Below are positions 7,966 to 19,129 of a stretch of DNA of 64,000 nucleotides, piece by piece. This DNA comes from Halofilum ochraceum (GTDB taxonomy: Bacteria; Pseudomonadota; Gammaproteobacteria; XJ16; Halofilaceae), in the NCBI RefSeq assembly GCF_001614315.2, contig NZ_LVEG02000007.1:62001-126000 (forward strand). The letters run 5' to 3'. Under the pieces are notes generated by a model. That model saw only the letters and a list, made by a program, of their open reading frames with translations. It had not been told where the DNA came from and searched no databases. Position 1 is the stretch's first letter. Each line of letters begins with the position of its first letter. The position numbers and the translations under genes were made by a program.

Positions 7966-9696
7966 ATGCCAACCCTGATTCCCCGCCGTTTCAAAGCGGG
8001 CGGCCGCTTCCGCCCTGCGTTATCCGTATCGACGCTGTTGTTGATTGCCATGGCCGTTCTGCTTTGGGCATCGCCGGTGCTTGCGCAGGAGGCTGGCGCC
8101 GCCGGCGATTCGGTTCCAGGTTGGCTCTCGATTCTTCCGCCCGTTATCGCCATCGCCCTGGCGCTGCTGACGCGGCGCGTGATCCCCTCGCTGGCCGCTG
8201 GCATCTGGGTGGGCGCGTGGTTCGCCAATGAGTTGAGCCTGTACGGCATCTGGGCCGGGCTGCTCGACGTATTCGATACCTGGGTCCTGCAGGCGCTGGC
8301 ACCGCCGGACGGCAGTACCGGTCATATGTCGATCATCCTCTTTACGATGATGATCGGCGGCATGGTCGGCATCATCTATCGCAATGGCGGGGCGTTGGCG
8401 ATCGTCGAGAAGCTCACCAACTGGGCGAATAACCGGCGGCGTGGCGAAATGGCGTCGGCCGGGGTCGGTACGGCGATCTTTTTCGATGACTACGCCTCGT
8501 TGCTGGTGACGGGCAACGCAGTCCGTCCGATGACGGATCGTCTGCGGATATCACGGGAAAAGCTCGCGTATTACGTGGATACCTCGTCGGCACCGATCGC
8601 GACCCTTGCGCTGGTGACCACGTGGATCGGCTTTCAGGTCGGATTGATCGGCGATGCGACCAGCGGCCTCGAGGGTTATGACAAGAGTGCGTACGGCACC
8701 TTCCTGGGCGCGATCCCATACATGTTTTACCCGATCCTCGCATTCATCTTCATGTGGATGCTCGCGGGCACTTCGCGCGATTTCGGGCCGATGGCCCGTG
8801 CACAGCAGTACGCCCTCGAACATGGCCCGCAGGATGCGCGGGGCGGAGACCAAGAGTCGGAAGAAGGACTGGAAGCGAAGGAGGGCATTGCCCACAGGGC
8901 GATCAACGCCTGGTTGCCCGTCGCGGTACTGCTGGGCGTGACCATCATCGCGCTGTTCGTCACGGGCGAGGGCGACAGTGTCGGGGATATCATCGGCAGC
9001 GCCGATTCGTTCTCGGCATTGCTGTGGGGCTCACTGCTGTCGGTGCTGGTCGCGGGCATCCTGTCGGTCGGCCAGGGTCTGCTCTCGCTGGGTGAGACCG
9101 TCGAGGCGTGGCTGGCCGGTATCCGTTCGGTGCTCACCGTCCTGATCATTCTGACGCTGGCCTGGGCGCTGTCCTCGGTGACTGAAGAGCTGGATGCCGC
9201 GGCATTCCTGGCCGAGCTGCTGGGCGAAGCGATCCCGACCTGGATCCTGCCGGCGCTGCTGTTCGTGCTGGCCGCGGCCACGGCCTTCGCCACCGGCACG
9301 AGCTGGGGCACGATGGGAATCCTGCTGCCGCTCGCCATCCCGCTGACTTGGGCCATTCTTGGCAACGACGGTATGGCGAACGAGTCCGGCATGATGATCC
9401 TGCACGCCAGCGTGGCCTCCGTGCTCGCAGGCGCTGTGTGGGGCGATCATACCTCACCGATCTCGGATACGACGGTACTGGCGGCGGCGACGTCGCATTG
9501 CGGCGTCGCCGAGCATGCCAACACGCAGTTGCCGTACGGCCTTGTCGTCGGCGGTATCGCGATCGTCCTCGGACTGTTGCCGGTCGGATTCGGCGCCCCG
9601 TGGTGGGTGGGCATGATCCTTTCCATCGCCGCCCTGTTCGGGGTGGTCTACGGGATAGGGCGCCCGGTGGACGAAGTGCGGAAAAGCGGCGCCTGA
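7966..9696 (+). CDS. NhaC-family Na+/H+ antiporter, probable arginine/ornithine transporter
   Basis: The 576-residue product has a signal-like first helix ending in VLAQEAG and then about 11 membrane helices, with NhaC-family features such as [14 protein letters not shown] near 170 and [15 protein letters not shown] near 445, and HTSPISDTT near 495. NhaC members exchange Na+ and protons or move organic ions. The gene is first in an FNR-controlled operon followed at 49 bases by arginine deiminase, the place usually held by the arginine/ornithine antiporter ArcD. I therefore infer transport of arginine and/or ornithine, but a plain Na+/H+ antiporter protecting pH remains possible. AAAGGAG precedes the ATG. 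Confidence 0.82.
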
Positions 9697-9745
9697 TGGT
9701 GCCGCTTCCGCCGCACCGGCCACTGTATACGACACGGAGAATCCG

Positions 9746-10978
9746 ATGATCGATCAAGCTGTTCCTGGCGTGCATTCCGAAGTCGGCCGGCTGCGCACGG
9801 TCATGATCTGTCCGCCCGGGCTGGCGCACCGGCGCCTCACCCCGGCCAATTGCGACGAACTGCTGTTCGACGATGTCTACTGGGTCGACGAGGCCCGCCG
9901 CGATCACGATCAGTTCCGTTCGGTGCTGGAGGACAACGGCGTCGAGGTGCTCGACCTGCAGGCGATGCTCGGCGAAGTGCTCGAGCAGCCCGAAGCCCGG
10001 CAGTGGATCCTGGATCGCAAGATCACGTGGAATCACGTGGGCGTAGGCATGGTCTCTGACCTGCGAGCTTTCCTGGACGATCTGCCGGCGGCCGACCTCG
10101 CCGATTTTCTGATCGGGGGCATTGTCGTGCGGGATCTGCCGTTCGAGCCGTACGGGATGTTCGGTCGCTATCTCGGACCCGACGGCTTCGTGCTGCCACC
10201 GCTGCCCAACACGATCTTCACCCGGGATACGAGCTGCTGGATCTACGGCGGCGTGACGCTCAATCCGATGCGCTGGCCGGCCCGTCATCAGGAGACGATC
10301 CTGACCACGGCGGTGTACTCCTTCCATCCCCGTTTCCGGGATTCCGACTTCCGCATCTGGTGGGGCGATCCGGACGTCGCCCATGGCGCGGCGACCCTGG
10401 AGGGAGGAGACGTCATGCCGATCGGCAATGGCAATGTGCTGATCGGCATGGGCGAGCGTTCCACGCCGCAGGCGGTCGGGCAGGTCGCGAGCAGCCTTTT
10501 CCGCAACGGCGCGGCGGAGCGCGTGATCGCGTGTCAGATGCCCAAATCGCGCGCCGCCATGCACCTCGATACGGTGTTCACGCTTTGTGATCGCGAGGTC
10601 GCGACCAGTTTTGTCGAGGTCGCGGAACAGATCCAGTGCATCACGCTCCGTCCCGGGACCGGCGCACACCACCTTGATGTGCGTTACGAGGATTGCACGC
10701 TGTTCGATATCGCGGCGGAGTGCCTGGGTATCGATCGCCTGCGCGTGGTGCCGACCGGCGGCGATACCTTTGAGCGCGAGCGCGAACAGTGGGATGACGG
10801 CAACAACGTCGTGGCGATCGAACCGGGCCGGGTGATCGCCTATGACCGGAACGAATTCACGAATCGGGCGCTGCGGGAGGCGGGCATCGAAGTGCTCGAG
10901 ATCCCGGGCAGCGAACTGGGGCGTGGCCGCGGCGGCGGTCACTGCATGACCTGTCCCATTGCCCGTGATCCCGTGTGA
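9746..10978 (+). CDS. arcA: arginine deiminase
   Basis: The enzyme hydrolyses L-arginine to citrulline and ammonia in the cytoplasm, the first step of the fermentative arginine deiminase pathway. All guanidino-modifying enzyme motifs are present in the 410-residue protein: FTRD at 158-161, EGGD at 219-222, HLDTV at 273-277 and the nucleophile Cys400 in GGGHCMTCP. The length is that of bacterial ArcA (about 410). It lies between the NhaC-family transporter and arcB (32-base gap) in one operon under the FNR box at 7884. Nothing suggests damage. Confidence 0.95.
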
Positions 10979-11010
10979 GCGCGCCCTTATCGCGATCGAG
11001 GTAGTGATCC

Positions 11011-12012
11011 ATGCCGTATAACCTGCACAACCGCAATTTCCTCACCCTGAAGGATTTTTCGAACCAGGAGATCGCCTTTCTTCTGAAAATGGCGGGCGAA
11101 CTCAAATCAGCGAAATACGCGGGCACGGAGCAGCCGCGGCTGAGCGGCAAGCATATCGCGCTGATTTTCGAGAAAGACTCGACCCGGACGCGTATCGGCT
11201 TCGAGATCGCCGCCGCCGATCAGGGCATGCATGCAACGTATCTGGGGCCGAGTGGGACTCATCTGGGCCACAAGGAGACCGCGAAAGACACCGCACGGGT
11301 GCTTGATCGCATCTACGACGCCATCGAGTATCGCGGCTTCAGTCAGACCACCGTGCAGACCCTCGCAGACTATGCGAGTGTCCCGGTGTACAACGGCCTG
11401 ACCGATGAATTCCATCCCACCCAGATCCTCGCTGACTTCCTGACCATGCAGGAGCATACCGGCCGGCGCCTGCCGGAGATTTCGTTCTGTTTCGTCGGTG
11501 ACACCGGCAGCAACATGGGCGACTCCCTGCTGATCGGGGCCGCAAAGATGGGCATGGATGTCCGCCTGCTGGGGCCGAAGGACACCTGGCCGGAGCAGGA
11601 TGTCATGGACTACGCCCGCGGGCTCGCCGAACAAAGCGGTGCGCGGATCACGCTCACGGATGATATCGGGGAAGGGGTCAAGGGCGTCGATTTCATCTAC
11701 ACCGATGTGTGGCTGTCGATGGGCGACCCGGAGAGTGAGTGGGAGCGGCGGATCAACCTGATGAAACCGTACCAGGTCGACAGCGCGATGATGGGCAGAA
11801 CGGGCAACCCGGCAACGAAGTTCCTGCACTGCCTGCCAGCTTTCCACAACGCGGAGACCGAAATCGGGGCGAACATCAAGAAACAGTTCGGCCTGGATGC
11901 GATGGAGGTGACGGAAGAGGTGTTCGAATCCGATGTGTCGGTCGTTTTCGATCAGGCCGAGAATCGCATGCACACGATCAAGGCGGTCCTCGTCGCGACG
12001 ATCGGGACCTGA
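11011..12012 (+). CDS. arcB: ornithine carbamoyltransferase, catabolic
   Basis: The 333-residue protein has the carbamoyl-phosphate motif DSTRTR at about 56-61, the ornithine-loop HPTQ near residue 133 and HCLPAFH near 274. In the operon it would run in the catabolic direction, phosphorolysing citrulline to ornithine and carbamoyl phosphate. Anabolic and catabolic forms cannot be separated by motifs alone; the assignment rests on the neighbours arcA upstream and arcC six bases downstream. Confidence 0.95.
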
Positions 12013-12018
12013 GTCGCT

Positions 12019-12948
12019 ATGCGAATCGTAATCGCACTGGGAGGCAACGCGCTGCTGCGCCGCGGTGAACCGCTGGAGGCGGAACTGCAGCAGCGCAACA
12101 TCGAACGGGCGGCGCAGGCCATCGCGCCGCTCGCCCGTGATCATGAACTCGTCATCACCCACGGCAACGGTCCCCAGGTCGGCCTGCTCGCACTGCAGTC
12201 GGCGGCCTATACCGACGTCAAGCAATACCCCCTGGACGTACTCGGTGCCGAAAGCGAGGGTATGATCGGGTACATGCTCGAGCAGGCGTTCGCCAATGAA
12301 CTCGAGCAGCGCGATGTAGCCACGCTGCTGACCCGCATCGAAGTGGATGAAAACGACCCGGCATTCGAGCGGCCGACCAAGCCGATCGGCCCGGTCTATG
12401 AAGAGTCGGTCGCGCGCGAACTCGCGGAGCAGCGCGGGTGGTCGGTGGAGCCGGATGGTGACGGGTACCGTCGCGTCGTTCCGTCGCCACGCCCGCGGCG
12501 CATTATCGAGATCAACACCATCCGTACCCTGGTGAACGCCGGGGTGCTCGTGGTCTGTGCGGGGGGCGGCGGTATCCCGGTCATTCGCGTGCCATCCGGA
12601 GATATCGTCGGCATCGAGGCCGTGATCGACAAGGATCACGCCGCGGGCCTGCTCGCAAGGCAGCTGGAGGCCGACGCGTTCCTGATGCTGACGGATGTGG
12701 ATGCGGTCTACGTGGACTGGAACACGCCGGATCAGCGTGCCATCGCGAGCGCATCGCCGGCTGATCTCCGTGGCCTTGATTTGCCGGCGGGCTCGATGGG
12801 GCCGAAAGTGGCGGCGGCCTGCGAGTTTGTCGAGGGCGGCGGCTCGTTCGCCGCGATTGGCCGCCTCGACGACGCCAGCGGGCTTGTCGACGGCACGGCC
12901 GGTACGCGCATAGCACAAACCGGAGAAAGCCTGAGTTTCAGGCCGTGA
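12019..12948 (+). CDS. arcC: carbamate kinase
   Basis: The 309-residue enzyme uses carbamoyl phosphate and ADP to make ATP, carbamate and so ammonia and CO2, the energy-yielding last step of the pathway. It begins with the amino-acid-kinase signature IALGGNALL, has THGNGPQVG near 54, and the ADP-site segment MLTDVDAVY near 222 and GSMGPKVAAA near 258. It begins six bases after arcB, so the two are translated together. Length is normal for ArcC. It completes arcABC. Confidence 0.95.
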   Translation: MRIVIALGGNALLRRGEPLEAELQQRNIERAAQAIAPLARDHELVITHGNGPQVGLLALQSAAYTDVKQYPLDVLGAESEGMIGYMLEQAFANELEQRDVATLLTRIEVDENDPAFERPTKPIGPVYEESVARELAEQRGWSVEPDGDGYRRVVPSPRPRRIIEINTIRTLVNAGVLVVCAGGGGIPVIRVPSGDIVGIEAVIDKDHAAGLLARQLEADAFLMLTDVDAVYVDWNTPDQRAIASASPADLRGLDLPAGSMGPKVAAACEFVEGGGSFAAIGRLDDASGLVDGTAGTRIAQTGESLSFRP

Positions 12949-14284: not shown

Positions 14285-15052
14285 TCAGACCGAGAACAGC
14301 GACCCCGCCCCGTGGCCATGGTCGCGGATGCCGGCCAGGCGCAGCATATGCCAGGCGAGGGCCTGGTTGCTGGAGATGACCGGCCGCTCGAGCTCTGCCT
14401 CTGCGTGGGCCAGCACGTCTAGCGTGCGGGCGTTGGTGCAGGAGACGATTACGCCGTCACAGGCTGCTGCCCGACCGACGCGCAGAATCGCCTCGAGCAT
14501 GGATGCCGGGCGGATCCGGGCGACCGTGTGTTCTTCGGACTGCTCGAACGAACCGACCGTGCTCAGGCTCAGGCCATCGGCTTCCAGTGCGTTTCGCACC
14601 GCGGAGGAGACCTCTGCGATGTAAGGGCTGACAAACGCCGGTCGGTGGACGCCCAGGGCGTGACAGGCGGCCTTGAGGGCCGTGAGCGGATCGGTCACGC
14701 CGCTCTCGCCGAAGTGGCCCGGATGATCCGTCGGTCGGGCATCGCGGATCGAGCCTGCGACCGCATCGGGACCGATCAGCGTTGCTCCCGAGGTACAGGC
14801 GTAGCCGACCACATCCATCGGGCTGGCCGGTGGCAGCATGCGCGCCGCCTCGGGGATTCGTGCGGCCATGTCCTGCAGGCTGTCAGCCGTCGCTTCGGTG
14901 CCACTGCGTATGCGCGTGCAGTACACGGCGACCCCGTCGTGGTCGATGAGGCGGTGGAATTCGGGTTCGACGGTCTCATCGACGTGCAGGACGATCAGCC
15001 CGAGCCGGGTGCGGTACCCGGCACCACCATCGAGTTCGTAATCCAGTCGCAT
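14285..15052 (-). CDS. eutA: EutA-like Asp/Glu racemase-superfamily enzyme of ectoine utilisation
   Basis: The 255-residue protein belongs to the maleate isomerase / arylmalonate decarboxylase branch of the Asp/Glu racemase superfamily. Both active-site cysteines are visible, in GYACTSGA near residue 86 and IVSCTNAR near 202. Members called EutA occur in ectoine/hydroxyectoine utilisation clusters; its precise reaction has been hard to assign, with a role in hydroxyectoine conversion proposed. Here it is the last gene of a four-gene minus-strand operon, 27 bases after doeA. The symbol rests on context plus family. Confidence 0.78.
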   Translation of the reverse strand: MRLDYELDGGAGYRTRLGLIVLHVDETVEPEFHRLIDHDGVAVYCTRIRSGTEATADSLQDMAARIPEAARMLPPASPMDVVGYACTSGATLIGPDAVAGSIRDARPTDHPGHFGESGVTDPLTALKAACHALGVHRPAFVSPYIAEVSSAVRNALEADGLSLSTVGSFEQSEEHTVARIRPASMLEAILRVGRAAACDGVIVSCTNARTLDVLAHAEAELERPVISSNQALAWHMLRLAGIRDHGHGAGSLFSV

Positions 15053-15079: not shown

Positions 15080-16252
15080 TCAGTCGATGACGGGCAGTTC
15101 GGGGGCTGCTCGCCTGGAGAGCAGTTCGGCGCCGCTTTCGCGAATGACGATGTTCTCCTCGTGCACCATGCTCCGTCCCGGGCCGATTCCGAGACCCGGC
15201 TCGAGCGTCAGGACCATACCGGGTTGCAGGACCGTCCGGTCGTCCGGCGTATGCGATGGCCACTCGGTGAGCTGCATGCCGAGGCCGTGACCGAGGCGTC
15301 CGACATTGCCGCACTCGTAGCCGTCGGCCACGATGACGTCGCGCATCGCATGGAACAGATCGGCGCAGGTCGAACCGGGCCGCGCCGCCGCCTGACCGGC
15401 ATCGGTGGCTCGGTAGAGCGTGTCGTAGGCGCGTCGGGTGTCGTCGTCCGCTTGGCCGATTGCCCAGTTGCGGTCGAAATCGCAGAAGTAGCCATCGAAC
15501 AGTGCGCCGGTGTCCATCATCAGGATATCGCCGTCGCTGAGCGGATCCTCTCCCGGTGGCGTGATGACGTCCTCGTAACCGCCGGGGGCGGACGCGCCCA
15601 CCAGGTACGGGACGTTGTCGGCGCCATTGCGCAGCAGCGCCATCCGGAAGGCGCGGAACGTTTCCGTCAGCGGCTGTCCCAGAGCGACGAGTTGCGGTAC
15701 CTCGGCAAAGGCATTGGAAGCGATTTCGCAGATATGGGCGATCTTCGCGATCTCCCGTTCCGATTTGATCATCCGCAGTTCCCGCATCAGGGCACTGGCA
15801 TCGACGGGCTCTGCCGCCGGCAGTTGATACTGGAGCTGCCGGTAGTCATTGAGCGGCATGCGCAGCATGGTCTCGGGGCCCATCGGCAGGCCGATGCGTC
15901 CGGCGCCCGCGCCGGCATCGCGCAGCGCCTCGGCCAGCCGCGAAACGCCTTCATCGTCCGGCTGCGGGGAAGGCCAGGTGCGGATGTCGTCGATCCAGGT
16001 GCGGGCCATGAGCGGGGCGCCGATGCCGGGGATCACGGCGATCGGTTTGCCGTCACGCGGGACGACCAGGAACCATGGACGGGTCGGGCTCTGCCAGAAT
16101 TCGGTCAGGAAGCCGCTGAACCAGCGCACCTCCGGTTCGGTGGTCAGGAGCAGCGCGTCGAGGCCGGCGGTGGCCATGCCGCGCTGTGCCCGCGCCAGAC
16201 GCGCTTCGAACTCGGCGGGCGGCAGGCCGCGCTCGCAGGTCGCCGCCGTCAT
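15080..16252 (-). CDS. doeA: ectoine hydrolase (M24 peptidase family)
   Basis: The 390-residue protein is a creatinase-like M24 metallohydrolase. Metal ligands are recognisable: Asp in MMDTGALFDG, Asp in FCDFDRNW, His in RLGHGLGM, Glu in LTLEPGLG and Glu in VHEENIV. DoeA (EutD) opens the ectoine ring to N-acetyl-2,4-diaminobutyrate. The ATG at 16252 overlaps the doeB stop by four bases (ATGA), which fixes the start and implies coupled translation. A much longer reading frame covers this gene and runs on upstream, but its upstream part is only the wrong frame of doeB. Confidence 0.9.
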   Translation of the reverse strand: MTAATCERGLPPAEFEARLARAQRGMATAGLDALLLTTEPEVRWFSGFLTEFWQSPTRPWFLVVPRDGKPIAVIPGIGAPLMARTWIDDIRTWPSPQPDDEGVSRLAEALRDAGAGAGRIGLPMGPETMLRMPLNDYRQLQYQLPAAEPVDASALMRELRMIKSEREIAKIAHICEIASNAFAEVPQLVALGQPLTETFRAFRMALLRNGADNVPYLVGASAPGGYEDVITPPGEDPLSDGDILMMDTGALFDGYFCDFDRNWAIGQADDDTRRAYDTLYRATDAGQAAARPGSTCADLFHAMRDVIVADGYECGNVGRLGHGLGMQLTEWPSHTPDDRTVLQPGMVLTLEPGLGIGPGRSMVHEENIVIRESGAELLSRRAAPELPVID

Positions 16253-17415
16253 GGTGCGAGCCGCGCGCGCACGAGCCGGGTCCAGTATTCGATGCCCCAG
16301 GCCATGGCGGTGTCGTTGAAGTCGTAGCGCGGGTTGTGCAGGGGCGCGCCATGCGGGCCCTCGGTGCCGTTGCCCAGGAGCATGAAGCAGCCCGGTCGAT
16401 GGCGCAGGAAGCGCGCGAAATCCTCGGAAAACCCCATCGGGGCGTGGGCGTCGTCGACCTGTGCCCCCGCTATCCCGCGGGCCGCGCCGGCGGCCTGCTG
16501 CACTTCGGTGGCGGTGTTGATGGTCGGTTCGAACTCGCGCTCGTAGCGCAGGTTCGCGCGGGCGCCATGCGCGGTGGCGATGCCCTCGACGAGCGCGCGC
16601 ATGCGCTGCTCGATGGTCGCGCTGACCGCATCGTCGTAACCGCGCGTGTCGCCGCGGATGGTCACGGTGCCGGGCAGGATGTTGCGGGCGCCGTCGGTGA
16701 TGAACTCGGTGGCCGAGACCACGCCGAAATCCCCCGGCGACAGGGCGCGGGAGACGATCGTCTGCAGCGCCAGCACGATCTCCGAACCGATGACGAGCGG
16801 GTCGATCGCATGCTGGGGGCTCGAGGCGTGGCCCCCGCGTCCTTCGACTTCGATCGTGAATATCTCCTCGAAAGCGGTGAACGCGCCGGTGCGTGTAGCG
16901 AACGCACCGACCGGCAGGCCCGGGAGATTGTGCAGGCCGAAGATCGCGTCCATCGGGAACCGTTTGAACAGGCCATCGTCGATCATGGCCTGTGCCCCGC
17001 GGCCGTTTTCCTCGTCCGGCTGGAAAACGAAATACACCGTGCCCTCGAAACCGCCTTCCGCGGCCAGCGCCTGGGCGGCGCCGAGCAGCATCGTGGCGTG
17101 GCCATCGTGGCCGCATCCGTGGAATTTCCCTTCGACCGTGGAGCGGTGGGCGCACTCGGTCCGCTCCGTGATCGGCAGTGCATCCATGTCCGCGCGCAGG
17201 CCGATCGCCGCGTTGCCCTGACCTCGCTGCAAGGCGGCGACCACGCCGCTGCCGCCGACCCCGGTCGTCACCGCGAGGCCCGCCGTGCGCAGACGCTCGG
17301 CGAGCGTCGCCGCGGTGGCGGACACCTCGAATCCGGTCTCGGGTGCGCGGTGCAGGGCGTGGCGCAGCGATTCGAGTTCCCGCAGGTCGACCCGTGGCGT
17401 CGGCGCACCGCTCAT
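16249..17415 (-). CDS. doeB: N-acetyl-diaminobutyrate deacetylase (M20 family)
   Basis: The 388-residue product is an M20 amidohydrolase with the usual metal and catalytic segments: RADMDALP near 75, GCGHDGHATML near 100, QPDEENGRG near 135, RGGHASSP near 195 and the late SEDFARFL near 345. DoeB (EutE) removes acetate from N-acetyl-2,4-diaminobutyrate, the DoeA product. The start ATG at 17415 overlaps the stop of the upstream PLP enzyme by four bases and its stop overlaps the doeA start by four, a tightly coupled operon. A generic hippurate hydrolase would look similar; the neighbours decide the assignment. Confidence 0.9.
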   Translation of the reverse strand: MSGAPTPRVDLRELESLRHALHRAPETGFEVSATAATLAERLRTAGLAVTTGVGGSGVVAALQRGQGNAAIGLRADMDALPITERTECAHRSTVEGKFHGCGHDGHATMLLGAAQALAAEGGFEGTVYFVFQPDEENGRGAQAMIDDGLFKRFPMDAIFGLHNLPGLPVGAFATRTGAFTAFEEIFTIEVEGRGGHASSPQHAIDPLVIGSEIVLALQTIVSRALSPGDFGVVSATEFITDGARNILPGTVTIRGDTRGYDDAVSATIEQRMRALVEGIATAHGARANLRYEREFEPTINTATEVQQAAGAARGIAGAQVDDAHAPMGFSEDFARFLRHRPGCFMLLGNGTEGPHGAPLHNPRYDFNDTAMAWGIEYWTRLVRARLAP

Positions 17416-18506
17416 GCGTCCTCCCGGCCCTCGGAGATGAACGCCAGTATCCGGCTTTCGGGCGTCAGACCCAAAACGCCGCGTTGCCCATCGGCATGCT
17501 GCAGCGCCGCGACGCCGGCGGCACCGGAGGGCGTCGTGTCGAAACCCCGGGTCGCAAGGTGGGTGGCGGTCGCCGCCGCCTGGTCGTCGGTGATCGTCAC
17601 GAAATGGTCCGCGCCCCGTGCGAGTGCGCCCAGCGCGAGGTGTGACGGCTCTTTGCAGTCGAGCCGACCCATATTCGACTCTGCGCCGTTCGTCGCTACG
17701 GGGTGACCGGCGCGGATGCTTTCGATCAGCGCGGGCGCGCGATCCGGTTCGACGATCACGATGGCCGGGGTATCGCCCCAGCGATCGCGGAACAGGGCGG
17801 TCATCGCCGCGGCGAGGCCGCCGACACCGGCCTGCAGGAAGATGTGCGTCGGTGGTCTTTCCATGGCTTCGACCACCTCCGTGCCCATGACCAGATAGCC
17901 CTCCATGACTCGACGCGGAAGGTCGATGTAGCCGGGCCACGAGGAATCGGACAACAGCGTCCAGCCTTTGCGTTCGGCATCAGCCGCAACCGTGGCCATG
18001 GCATGCCCATAGTCGCCGCCGGGGCGAACGACCTCGGCATCGAAGCGGCGCAGGCGATCGGCGAATGCCTCCGGCACCGAGTCGGCCAGATAGATCACCG
18101 CGGTGGCGCCGAACAGGCGTGCGCCGGCCGCGACCGAGAGGCCATGATTCCCGGCGCTGGCGCAGGCGTACACCGAGCCGTCCAGCGCGTGGGCCATGCG
18201 GTCGCGATCGGCCGGGGCATCCGGTCCGTCCATCCGCAGCGCTGCCTCGCGCGCGATCACGTAGGCCGCACCGAGCGCTTTGAAGCTGCCGAGCCCCATG
18301 CGCGCGCGCTCGTCCTTGAGCAGGAGGGAGTCGACGCCGAATTGCCTGGCCGGATCAGGGTATTCCTGCAACGGCGTCGGCATCGCGGCCGGGCAACGGG
18401 TCAGCAGTGTCAGTGGTTCCGTGGGGTCGACGCTCACGTCCCCCTCAGCGAGCCCCACCGATTGCGGCAGTCCCGGGCCCCGGAAAGGATTCTGCAGAAC
18501 GTCCAT
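17412..18506 (-). CDS. PLP-dependent lyase, diaminopropionate ammonia-lyase-like (EutB position)
   Basis: The 364-residue protein has a fold-type II PLP enzyme layout: the lysine motif KDERARMGLGSFKALG (PLP Lys near 75), the substrate loop SAGNHGLS near 120, and the glycine-rich phosphate loop QAGVGGLAA near 224. The stretch SDSSWPGYIDLPRRVMEGY closely follows diaminopropionate ammonia-lyase, not the shorter threonine dehydratases called EutB. Being first in the ectoine catabolic operon, it may act on 2,4-diaminobutyrate or a hydroxylated relative; this is inference. The usual DoeC and DoeD genes are not nearby. Confidence 0.75.
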   Translation of the reverse strand: MDVLQNPFRGPGLPQSVGLAEGDVSVDPTEPLTLLTRCPAAMPTPLQEYPDPARQFGVDSLLLKDERARMGLGSFKALGAAYVIAREAALRMDGPDAPADRDRMAHALDGSVYACASAGNHGLSVAAGARLFGATAVIYLADSVPEAFADRLRRFDAEVVRPGGDYGHAMATVAADAERKGWTLLSDSSWPGYIDLPRRVMEGYLVMGTEVVEAMERPPTHIFLQAGVGGLAAAMTALFRDRWGDTPAIVIVEPDRAPALIESIRAGHPVATNGAESNMGRLDCKEPSHLALGALARGADHFVTITDDQAAATATHLATRGFDTTPSGAAGVAALQHADGQRGVLGLTPESRILAFISEGREDA

Positions 18507-18589: not shown

Positions 18590-18619
18590 GATTGCATCAG
18601 AATGGGTATGGAGTTTGTT

Positions 18620-19129
18620 ATGGGGCGATTGGAACTCGATACGAAAGATCGGCAGTTGCTCGATCTGCTCCAGCGGGATGCGCGCCAGTCACTGGAAACC
18701 CTTGCCGGTGAGGTCGCGCTCTCCGCGCCAGCCGTCCAGCGCCGGATCAAGCGGTTGCGCGAAGCGAGGGTGATCGAGCGCGAGGTCGCGGTCGTAGACC
18801 CGGCTGCCGTTGGCCTGCCCATGACGTTCGTGGTGATCGTGGAACTCGAACGCGAAAGCGCGGACCAGATCGATGCCTTTCGACGGAAGGTGATCGCGGA
18901 ACCGCAGGTCCAGCAGGGTTACTACGTGACGGGCGAAGGGGATTTCGTGATTGTCGCCGTTGCGCGGGATATGGATGATTTCGAGGCGGTCACCCGGAAG
19001 CTGTTCTTCGATGACCCGAATGTGCGCCGATTCCGGACGTCGGTTGCTATGGGGAAGGCCTTCCGGTCTTTGAATGTGCCGGCCGGATACGCGGGGACGA
19101 TCGCGGGGCAGGATCCGCCCCACGGATAG
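18620..19129 (+). CDS. doeX: Lrp/AsnC-family regulator of ectoine degradation
   Basis: The 169-residue protein has an N-terminal winged HTH (DTKDRQLLDLLQ then LAGEVALSAPAVQRRIKRL) and a C-terminal RAM ligand-binding domain with GYYVTGEGDFVIVA. DoeX of Halomonas is such a regulator, encoded with doeA and doeB. The gene is divergent from the catabolic operon, with a 95-base AT-rich gap, and likely senses a pathway intermediate. I chose ATG 18620 because GGAG at 18610-18613 is six bases upstream; ATG 18602, six codons earlier, has no such site and lies next to the predicted transcription start. Confidence 0.88.
   Translation: MGRLELDTKDRQLLDLLQRDARQSLETLAGEVALSAPAVQRRIKRLREARVIEREVAVVDPAAVGLPMTFVVIVELERESADQIDAFRRKVIAEPQVQQGYYVTGEGDFVIVAVARDMDDFEAVTRKLFFDDPNVRRFRTSVAMGKAFRSLNVPAGYAGTIAGQDPPHG

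Follow-up and report, generated by a model that had tools for sequence, protein, structure and literature searches.

A divergent diaminopropionate ammonia-lyase heads a four-gene operon in Halofilum ochraceum that may act on a diamino-acid derivative apart from the ectoine pathway

Diaminopropionate ammonia-lyase (DAPAL) removes the alpha proton of its substrate and expels the beta substituent. From the structural work on the E. coli enzyme, we take D120 to be the base that serves the D-isomer and D189 the base that serves the L-isomer. D120 has also been named, together with K77, as a potential catalytic residue of DAPAL (PMC4000059). In the E. coli ygeW-ygeX-ygeY cluster, DAPAL is encoded beside an M20-family hydrolase, and hydrolysis to diaminopropionate is followed by the lyase reaction; YgeX and YgeY degrade ureidoalanine to pyruvate (PMC12507026). 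The eutABCDE/doeABCDX clusters of ectoine breakdown bring together a PLP lyase, an M24 protein, a EutA-family protein and an Lrp/AsnC regulator, and the precise activities of EutA, EutB and EutC are unknown (PMC8739950).

The combination of the eut/doe clusters is also met in the window, by which we mean the whole stretch of 64,000 nucleotides of H. ochraceum DNA that was analysed. The features are as follows.

18602..19129, plus strand: divergent Lrp/AsnC-family regulator
17412..18506, minus strand: DAPAL-like PLP fold-type II lyase, 364 aa, with K76 (Schiff base), D187, A118, S327 and R281/D283/K285
17412..17415, minus strand: ATGA shared by the lyase stop and the M20 start
16249..17415, minus strand: M20-family amidohydrolase, generic, with the motifs HGCGHD, DEEN, GLHN and LHN
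16249..16252, minus strand: ATGA shared by the M20 stop and the M24 start
15080..16252, minus strand: M24 prolidase/creatinase-fold hydrolase, not EutD, with the five metal ligands D, D, H, E and E
14285..15052, minus strand: EutA-like protein of the Asp/Glu-racemase/arylmalonate-decarboxylase family, with conserved C86 and C205

The lyase gene, a 364-codon open reading frame that fills its interval exactly, is the head of a four-gene, mostly translationally coupled operon in a marine bacterium. The original prediction had described a four-base overlap with the next gene, and this is the ATGA at the lyase stop; 27 nt separate the M24 gene from the EutA-like gene. Compared with the eut/doe clusters, the operon has an M24 protein of the metal-binding type and an M20 deacylase that is not of the EutE type, and it has no EutC, ATF or SSD. 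Compared with the E. coli yge cluster, with which it shares the lyase beside an M20 hydrolase, it is without hydantoinase, YgeW, SsnA and YgfK and carries the M24 and EutA-like genes instead. The arginine deiminase operon of the window (7966-12948, plus strand) faces the lyase operon and encodes an NhaC/ArcD-like antiporter, arginine deiminase, ornithine carbamoyltransferase and carbamate kinase. A urate (ygeX) pathway was considered and rejected because no YgeW-type carbamoyltransferase was found, the nearby carbamoyltransferase and carbamate kinase being those of the ornithine/arginine-deiminase set.

The lyase is a member of the DAPAL family, in a divergent subfamily, and is not EutB. It scored 273.8 bits against the NCBIfam DAPAL model NF006058, just under the cut-off of 276, and 170.3 bits (cut-off 532) and 148 bits (cut-off 274) against two further DAPAL models, TIGR03528 and TIGR01747. 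The scores against the EutB models NF005680 and TIGR02991 were 59.7 bits (cut-off 413) and 44.7 bits (cut-off 413.35). The closest PDB sequence match was E. coli DAPAL (4d9g, E 1.3e-38), the nearest solved relatives were the E. coli and Salmonella DAPALs, and the AlphaFold2 model (mean pLDDT 94.1) had E. coli DAPAL 4d9i as its top PDB match (TM 0.86). In a tree of 30 proteins, the entire DAPAL branch stood apart from EutB and IlvA (support 100/100), and the window lyase occupied a sub-branch of its own within it (97/100). These results rule out a EutB or threonine dehydratase identity and bear out the original prediction, which had read the motifs SFKALG (74-79), SDSSWPGY (186-193) and QAGVGG (225-230), all present in the translation, as those of a DAPAL and not of a short threonine dehydratase, and had proposed phylogeny as the check.

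The window lyase shares with DAPAL (YgeX, EC 4.3.1.15; 4d9g/4d9i, 5ygr) the fold, the PLP lysine, the residue D189, the phosphate loop and the N1 serine, but it is shorter, only about 27% identical to the E. coli enzyme in the structural alignment, and altered in two places, with Ala for D120 and R-D-K for G-A-G. With EutB it shares the PLP fold type II and, in some Rhodobacteraceae, the gene neighbourhood. We aligned 98 lyases, namely 87 subfamily members and 11 proteins that keep D120, the E. coli enzyme included. The E. coli residues K77 and D189 (K76 and D187 in the window) were kept in 98/98. The position of E. coli D120 (A118 in the window) was Ala in 87/87 subfamily members and Asp in 11/11 of the others, and the residues R281, D283 and K285 of the window lyase, which are G, A and G in E. 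coli, were present in 85/87 subfamily members versus 0/11 D120-keeping proteins. Judged from these residues, the loss of D120 and the R-D-K signature, the subfamily is likely an L-specific lyase with an altered pocket, and the signature may mean that the substrate is quite unlike 2,3-diaminopropionate. We found no substrate assay for any subfamily member in the open-access literature that we searched, nor a paper there that mentions both hydroxyectoine and diaminopropionate ammonia-lyase.

Could the operon be the ectoine operon of this genome, as the original prediction held, with the M24 protein as DoeA, the M20 protein as DoeB and the lyase as the first step after 2,4-diaminobutyrate (DABA)? 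The enzyme classes match, a EutA-like gene and an Lrp regulator are present, and the structural model of the M24 protein also resembles EutD 6twk (TM 0.86). However, the M24 protein scored only 68.2 bits against the EutD model (cut-off 613) and 53.1 bits against DoeA_2 (cut-off 575), and, although it was the sole tblastn match to EutD in the window, it is just 25% identical to it. All five ligands of the prolidase dinuclear metal site are present in this protein and in nearly all of its homologues, whereas EutD of this genome and the two annotated DoeA proteins compared have E, P, Y, I/M and S/T at the same sites and so have lost every ligand. The low scores and the retained ligands together rule out DoeA or EutD, and the nearest relatives by both sequence and fold are prolidases.

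The M20 protein likewise missed the DoeB2 cut-off (302.4 bits, cut-off 550) and passed only the generic amidohydrolase model TIGR01891 (302 bits, cut-off 153.75), so the identity of this neighbour as doeB, taken for granted originally, is not clear and is disfavoured. Its nearest solved relatives are an IAA-amino-acid hydrolase and YxeP, and no EutE match was reported for it in the profile search. The EutA-like protein is 31-35% identical to annotated EutA and scored 148 bits against the EutA model (cut-off 318); C86 and C205, cysteines of the catalytic type of the racemase/isomerase superfamily, were found in >93% of 50 aligned EutA-like proteins. The idea that its gene is the sole EutA of the genome was dropped, as a better EutA-family protein (214.8 bits) is encoded at C8:101883.

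Better matches to the other ectoine enzymes were also found elsewhere in the genome. A profile search of its contigs placed EutB (428.7 bits, above the cut-off) at the start of contig C8, beside a PRK07482-type aminotransferase and an SSADH-type dehydrogenase, and EutE on contig C1 (388 bits, cut-off 402.7). The end of contig C7 carries EutD (484 bits) and two EutC matches (467.9 bits, above the cut-off, and 447.8 bits).

L037:8953-13286 (end of C7): EutC, two EamA-type transporter genes and EutD
L043:34-5170 (start of C8): EutB, aminotransferase, SSADH-type dehydrogenase and alanine-dehydrogenase-like gene

Because their gene order and strand fit, these two pieces are probably one operon split by the contig end. 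A third EutD-family M24 gene on C1 (L038:9559-10710; 164 bits to DoeA_2) has no ectoine neighbours and has lost the metal ligands. Within the window, tblastn found no DoeD, DoeC, EutB, EutC, EutE or true EutD; the stated absence of DoeD and DoeC from it was thus correct, and genes of both types are present in the genome outside the window. Given the failed EutD and DoeB2 cut-offs and the real ectoine genes on C7, C8 and C1, the claim that the lyase heads the ectoine operon of this genome is not supported. Furthermore, the second amino group of DABA is gamma and not beta, so the direct elimination of ammonia from DABA that had been suggested is a misfit with the beta-elimination of DAPAL and is unlikely; 3-hydroxy-diaminobutyrate, which has a beta hydroxyl, is chemically possible as a substrate. 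An assignment of the operon as the genome's ectoine operon is therefore strongly disfavoured, and we consider it very improbable.

Which partners does the lyase keep in other genomes? A scan of bacterial genomes returned 543 lyase relatives, and the best 80 loci, mostly from Rhodobacterales and Roseibium-type bacteria, were taken for neighbourhood work; no relative of the lyase was found on viral contigs. The nearest relative, 85% identical, is in a metagenome-assembled genome labelled uncultured Ectothiorhodospiraceae bacterium. Start sites in the fetched loci are approximate, since a simple script was used to call the genes there. Counting the window and the 80 fetched loci, which are not independent because many come from congeners, an M24 homologue was present in 75/81 and a EutA-like homologue in 45/81. 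As a rule, the M24 frame begins inside the end of the lyase frame or no more than 64 nt from it. M20 was found in only 4/80 fetched loci, and a divergent Lrp gene is also upstream of the lyase in five (L049-L052 and L062).

Lyases that keep D120 have the same companions. Such DAPALs occur with the same M24 type, M20 and EutA-like proteins in L024, L025 and L175, for example in Roseovarius pelagicus and Aliiroseovarius; in Phaeobacter sp. G2, the partners are the M24 type and M20, and in rhizobia (L131, L132, L179) they are M24, an amino-acid ABC transporter and an M20-type hydrolase. On a Vibrio plasmid, dpaL stands with RidA and adjoining M24, BCCT and M20 genes. The L025 lyase passes the DAPAL model NF006058 at 475.7 bits. 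That bona fide DAPALs share the M24 partner is our chief reason to expect a 2,3-diaminopropionate-type intermediate. We favour, with somewhat less than even confidence, an operon for a diamino-acid derivative, headed by a lyase of the divergent DAPAL subfamily and separate from the ectoine pathway, although its enzymes resemble those of that pathway in type.

Several loci showed variants of the arrangement. On plasmid pPGA1_262 of Phaeobacter inhibens DSM 17395 (L134:5431-8134), Lrp, a subfamily lyase (PGA1_RS18505) and M20 are found without M24. At L041:2-4081 (G053), a D120-type DAPAL and M24 are grouped with EutA-like and a phytanoyl-dioxygenase-like frame, so that some versions may include a hydroxylation or demethylation step. 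For some hosts, N-methylated substrates are hinted at by what is encoded near the DAPAL/M24/EutA-like genes, namely an FAD oxidoreductase with folate-binding domains (L024:15147-17597) and sarcosine oxidase subunits (L136:2341-3908).

On the other hand, the trio of lyase, M24 and EutA-like genes was found inside the ectoine clusters of some Rhodobacteraceae, and a role beside ectoine breakdown is therefore a serious rival. The operon could form an accessory branch beside EutB/EutC that takes water or ammonia from 3-hydroxy-2,4-diaminobutyrate, or handles a side product such as gamma-N-acetyl-DABA. In five Rhodobacteraceae genomes (L170-L174), EutD is found 2-7 kb away from the trio. The order in L170, L172 and L174 is EutB, EutC, aminotransferase, lyase, M24 and EutA-like, with EutD divergent; the trio also comes after the aminotransferase in L171 and L173, and only 4 nt separate the lyase frame from that of the aminotransferase in L170. 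The lyases of these five loci are 65-75% identical, however, so that the five cases perhaps represent one event. In L175, EutD is in one stretch with M20, a D120-type DAPAL, M24, EutA-like and transporter genes.

The co-occurrence data have the same two sides. EutD was present in 29/30 genomes with operon loci, and EutB, EutC and EutD all occur in the genome of the window as well. Among 248 genomes of one family, in which subfamily presence was set by a bit-score threshold, EutD was found in 87/104 carriers versus 70/144 non-carriers, which is above expectation (odds ratio 5.4, p about 1e-8, a statistic that ignores shared ancestry). Yet EutD was missing from 17/104 of these carriers, and most of the 80 loci had no eut gene within about 8 kb. 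There is also a double dissociation among the compared genomes, some of which may be incomplete: G002, a sister species of the same genus, has EutD (494 bits) and neither this operon nor a close lyase relative, whereas the gammaproteobacterium G016 carries a related cluster of lyase, M20, M24 and Lrp genes but lacks EutD (best match 96 bits). Moreover, EutB/EutC already fill the step in question. Taken together, an accessory ectoine branch is possible, although we think it unlikely.

In the L170 ectoine cluster (L170:55-16070), an acetylornithine-deacetylase-type gene behind EutD stands in the place of EutE, and the same stretch includes DppA, a further gene of the M24/creatinase fold and an ABC transporter of the polyamine type. 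In L117 and L093, the trio is accompanied by a similar transporter and M24 gene.

The proximity of the M24 protein to prolidases fits another alternative, the general salvage of dipeptides or beta-substituted alanines, in which M24 would be a dipeptidase and the lyase a broad L-specific ammonia-lyase. Candidate substrates would be serine-like compounds, N-methyl-diaminopropionate, ureidoalanine (the E. coli YgeX/YgeY precedent) and plant isoxazolinone or cyano amino acids. The rhizobial versions with their M20-type hydrolase would also fit, as nitrile hydratase genes lie near DAPAL-M24 clusters in Sinorhizobium alkalisoli and Rhizobium leguminosarum (L131:15169-16552 and L179:1-1535), hinting at the cyano or isoxazolinone amino acids of legumes. 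The open-access search gave no paper joining nitrile hydratase, diaminopropionate and rhizobia, and the BMAA literature it covered held only general statements on DAPAL. Against general salvage, the strict R-D-K signature suggests one specific substrate, and nearly every member of the M24 group has Ile and Thr at the prolidase positions His192 and His291. We regard general salvage as improbable.

For the favoured diamino-acid-derivative operon, the following course is plausible from the enzyme families. The metal-dependent M24 protein and the M20 protein would strip an imported diamino-acid derivative of its amide or acyl part, and the EutA-like two-cysteine racemase would set the alpha-carbon configuration. 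Next, the PLP lyase would take the alpha proton off the L-isomer through D187 and eliminate the beta substituent. The substrate is most likely an L-2,3-diamino acid, from which ammonia would leave, and the resulting enamine would decay to a keto acid and ammonia. The order of hydrolase before DAPAL is proposed on the precedent of E. coli YgeY/YgeX acting on ureidoalanine (PMC12507026). Expression of the operon would be controlled by the Lrp/AsnC regulator. A more specific version, which we hold to be rather doubtful, is an undescribed pathway, widespread in marine Rhodobacterales, for a 2,3-diaminopropionate-based ectoine-like solute or for hydroxy-diaminobutyrate; here, M24 would open or de-acylate the solute, the EutA-like protein would set the configuration and the new L-specific lyase with the R-D-K pocket would split the product.

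Dozens of marine and soil bacteria carry the lyase-M24(-racemase) module, which is apparently a so far uncharacterised route for some nitrogen-rich compound. Its genes are in part annotated simply as "pyridoxal-phosphate dependent enzyme", "Xaa-Pro peptidase" and "Asp/Glu racemase". The change of D120 to Ala and the R-D-K signature make the subfamily easy to tell from EutB and ordinary DAPAL. Neighbours of the M24, M20 and EutA families are not in themselves enough to identify an ectoine operon, and the presence of the trio inside some ectoine clusters bears on the roles of EutA, EutB and EutC with hydroxyectoine.
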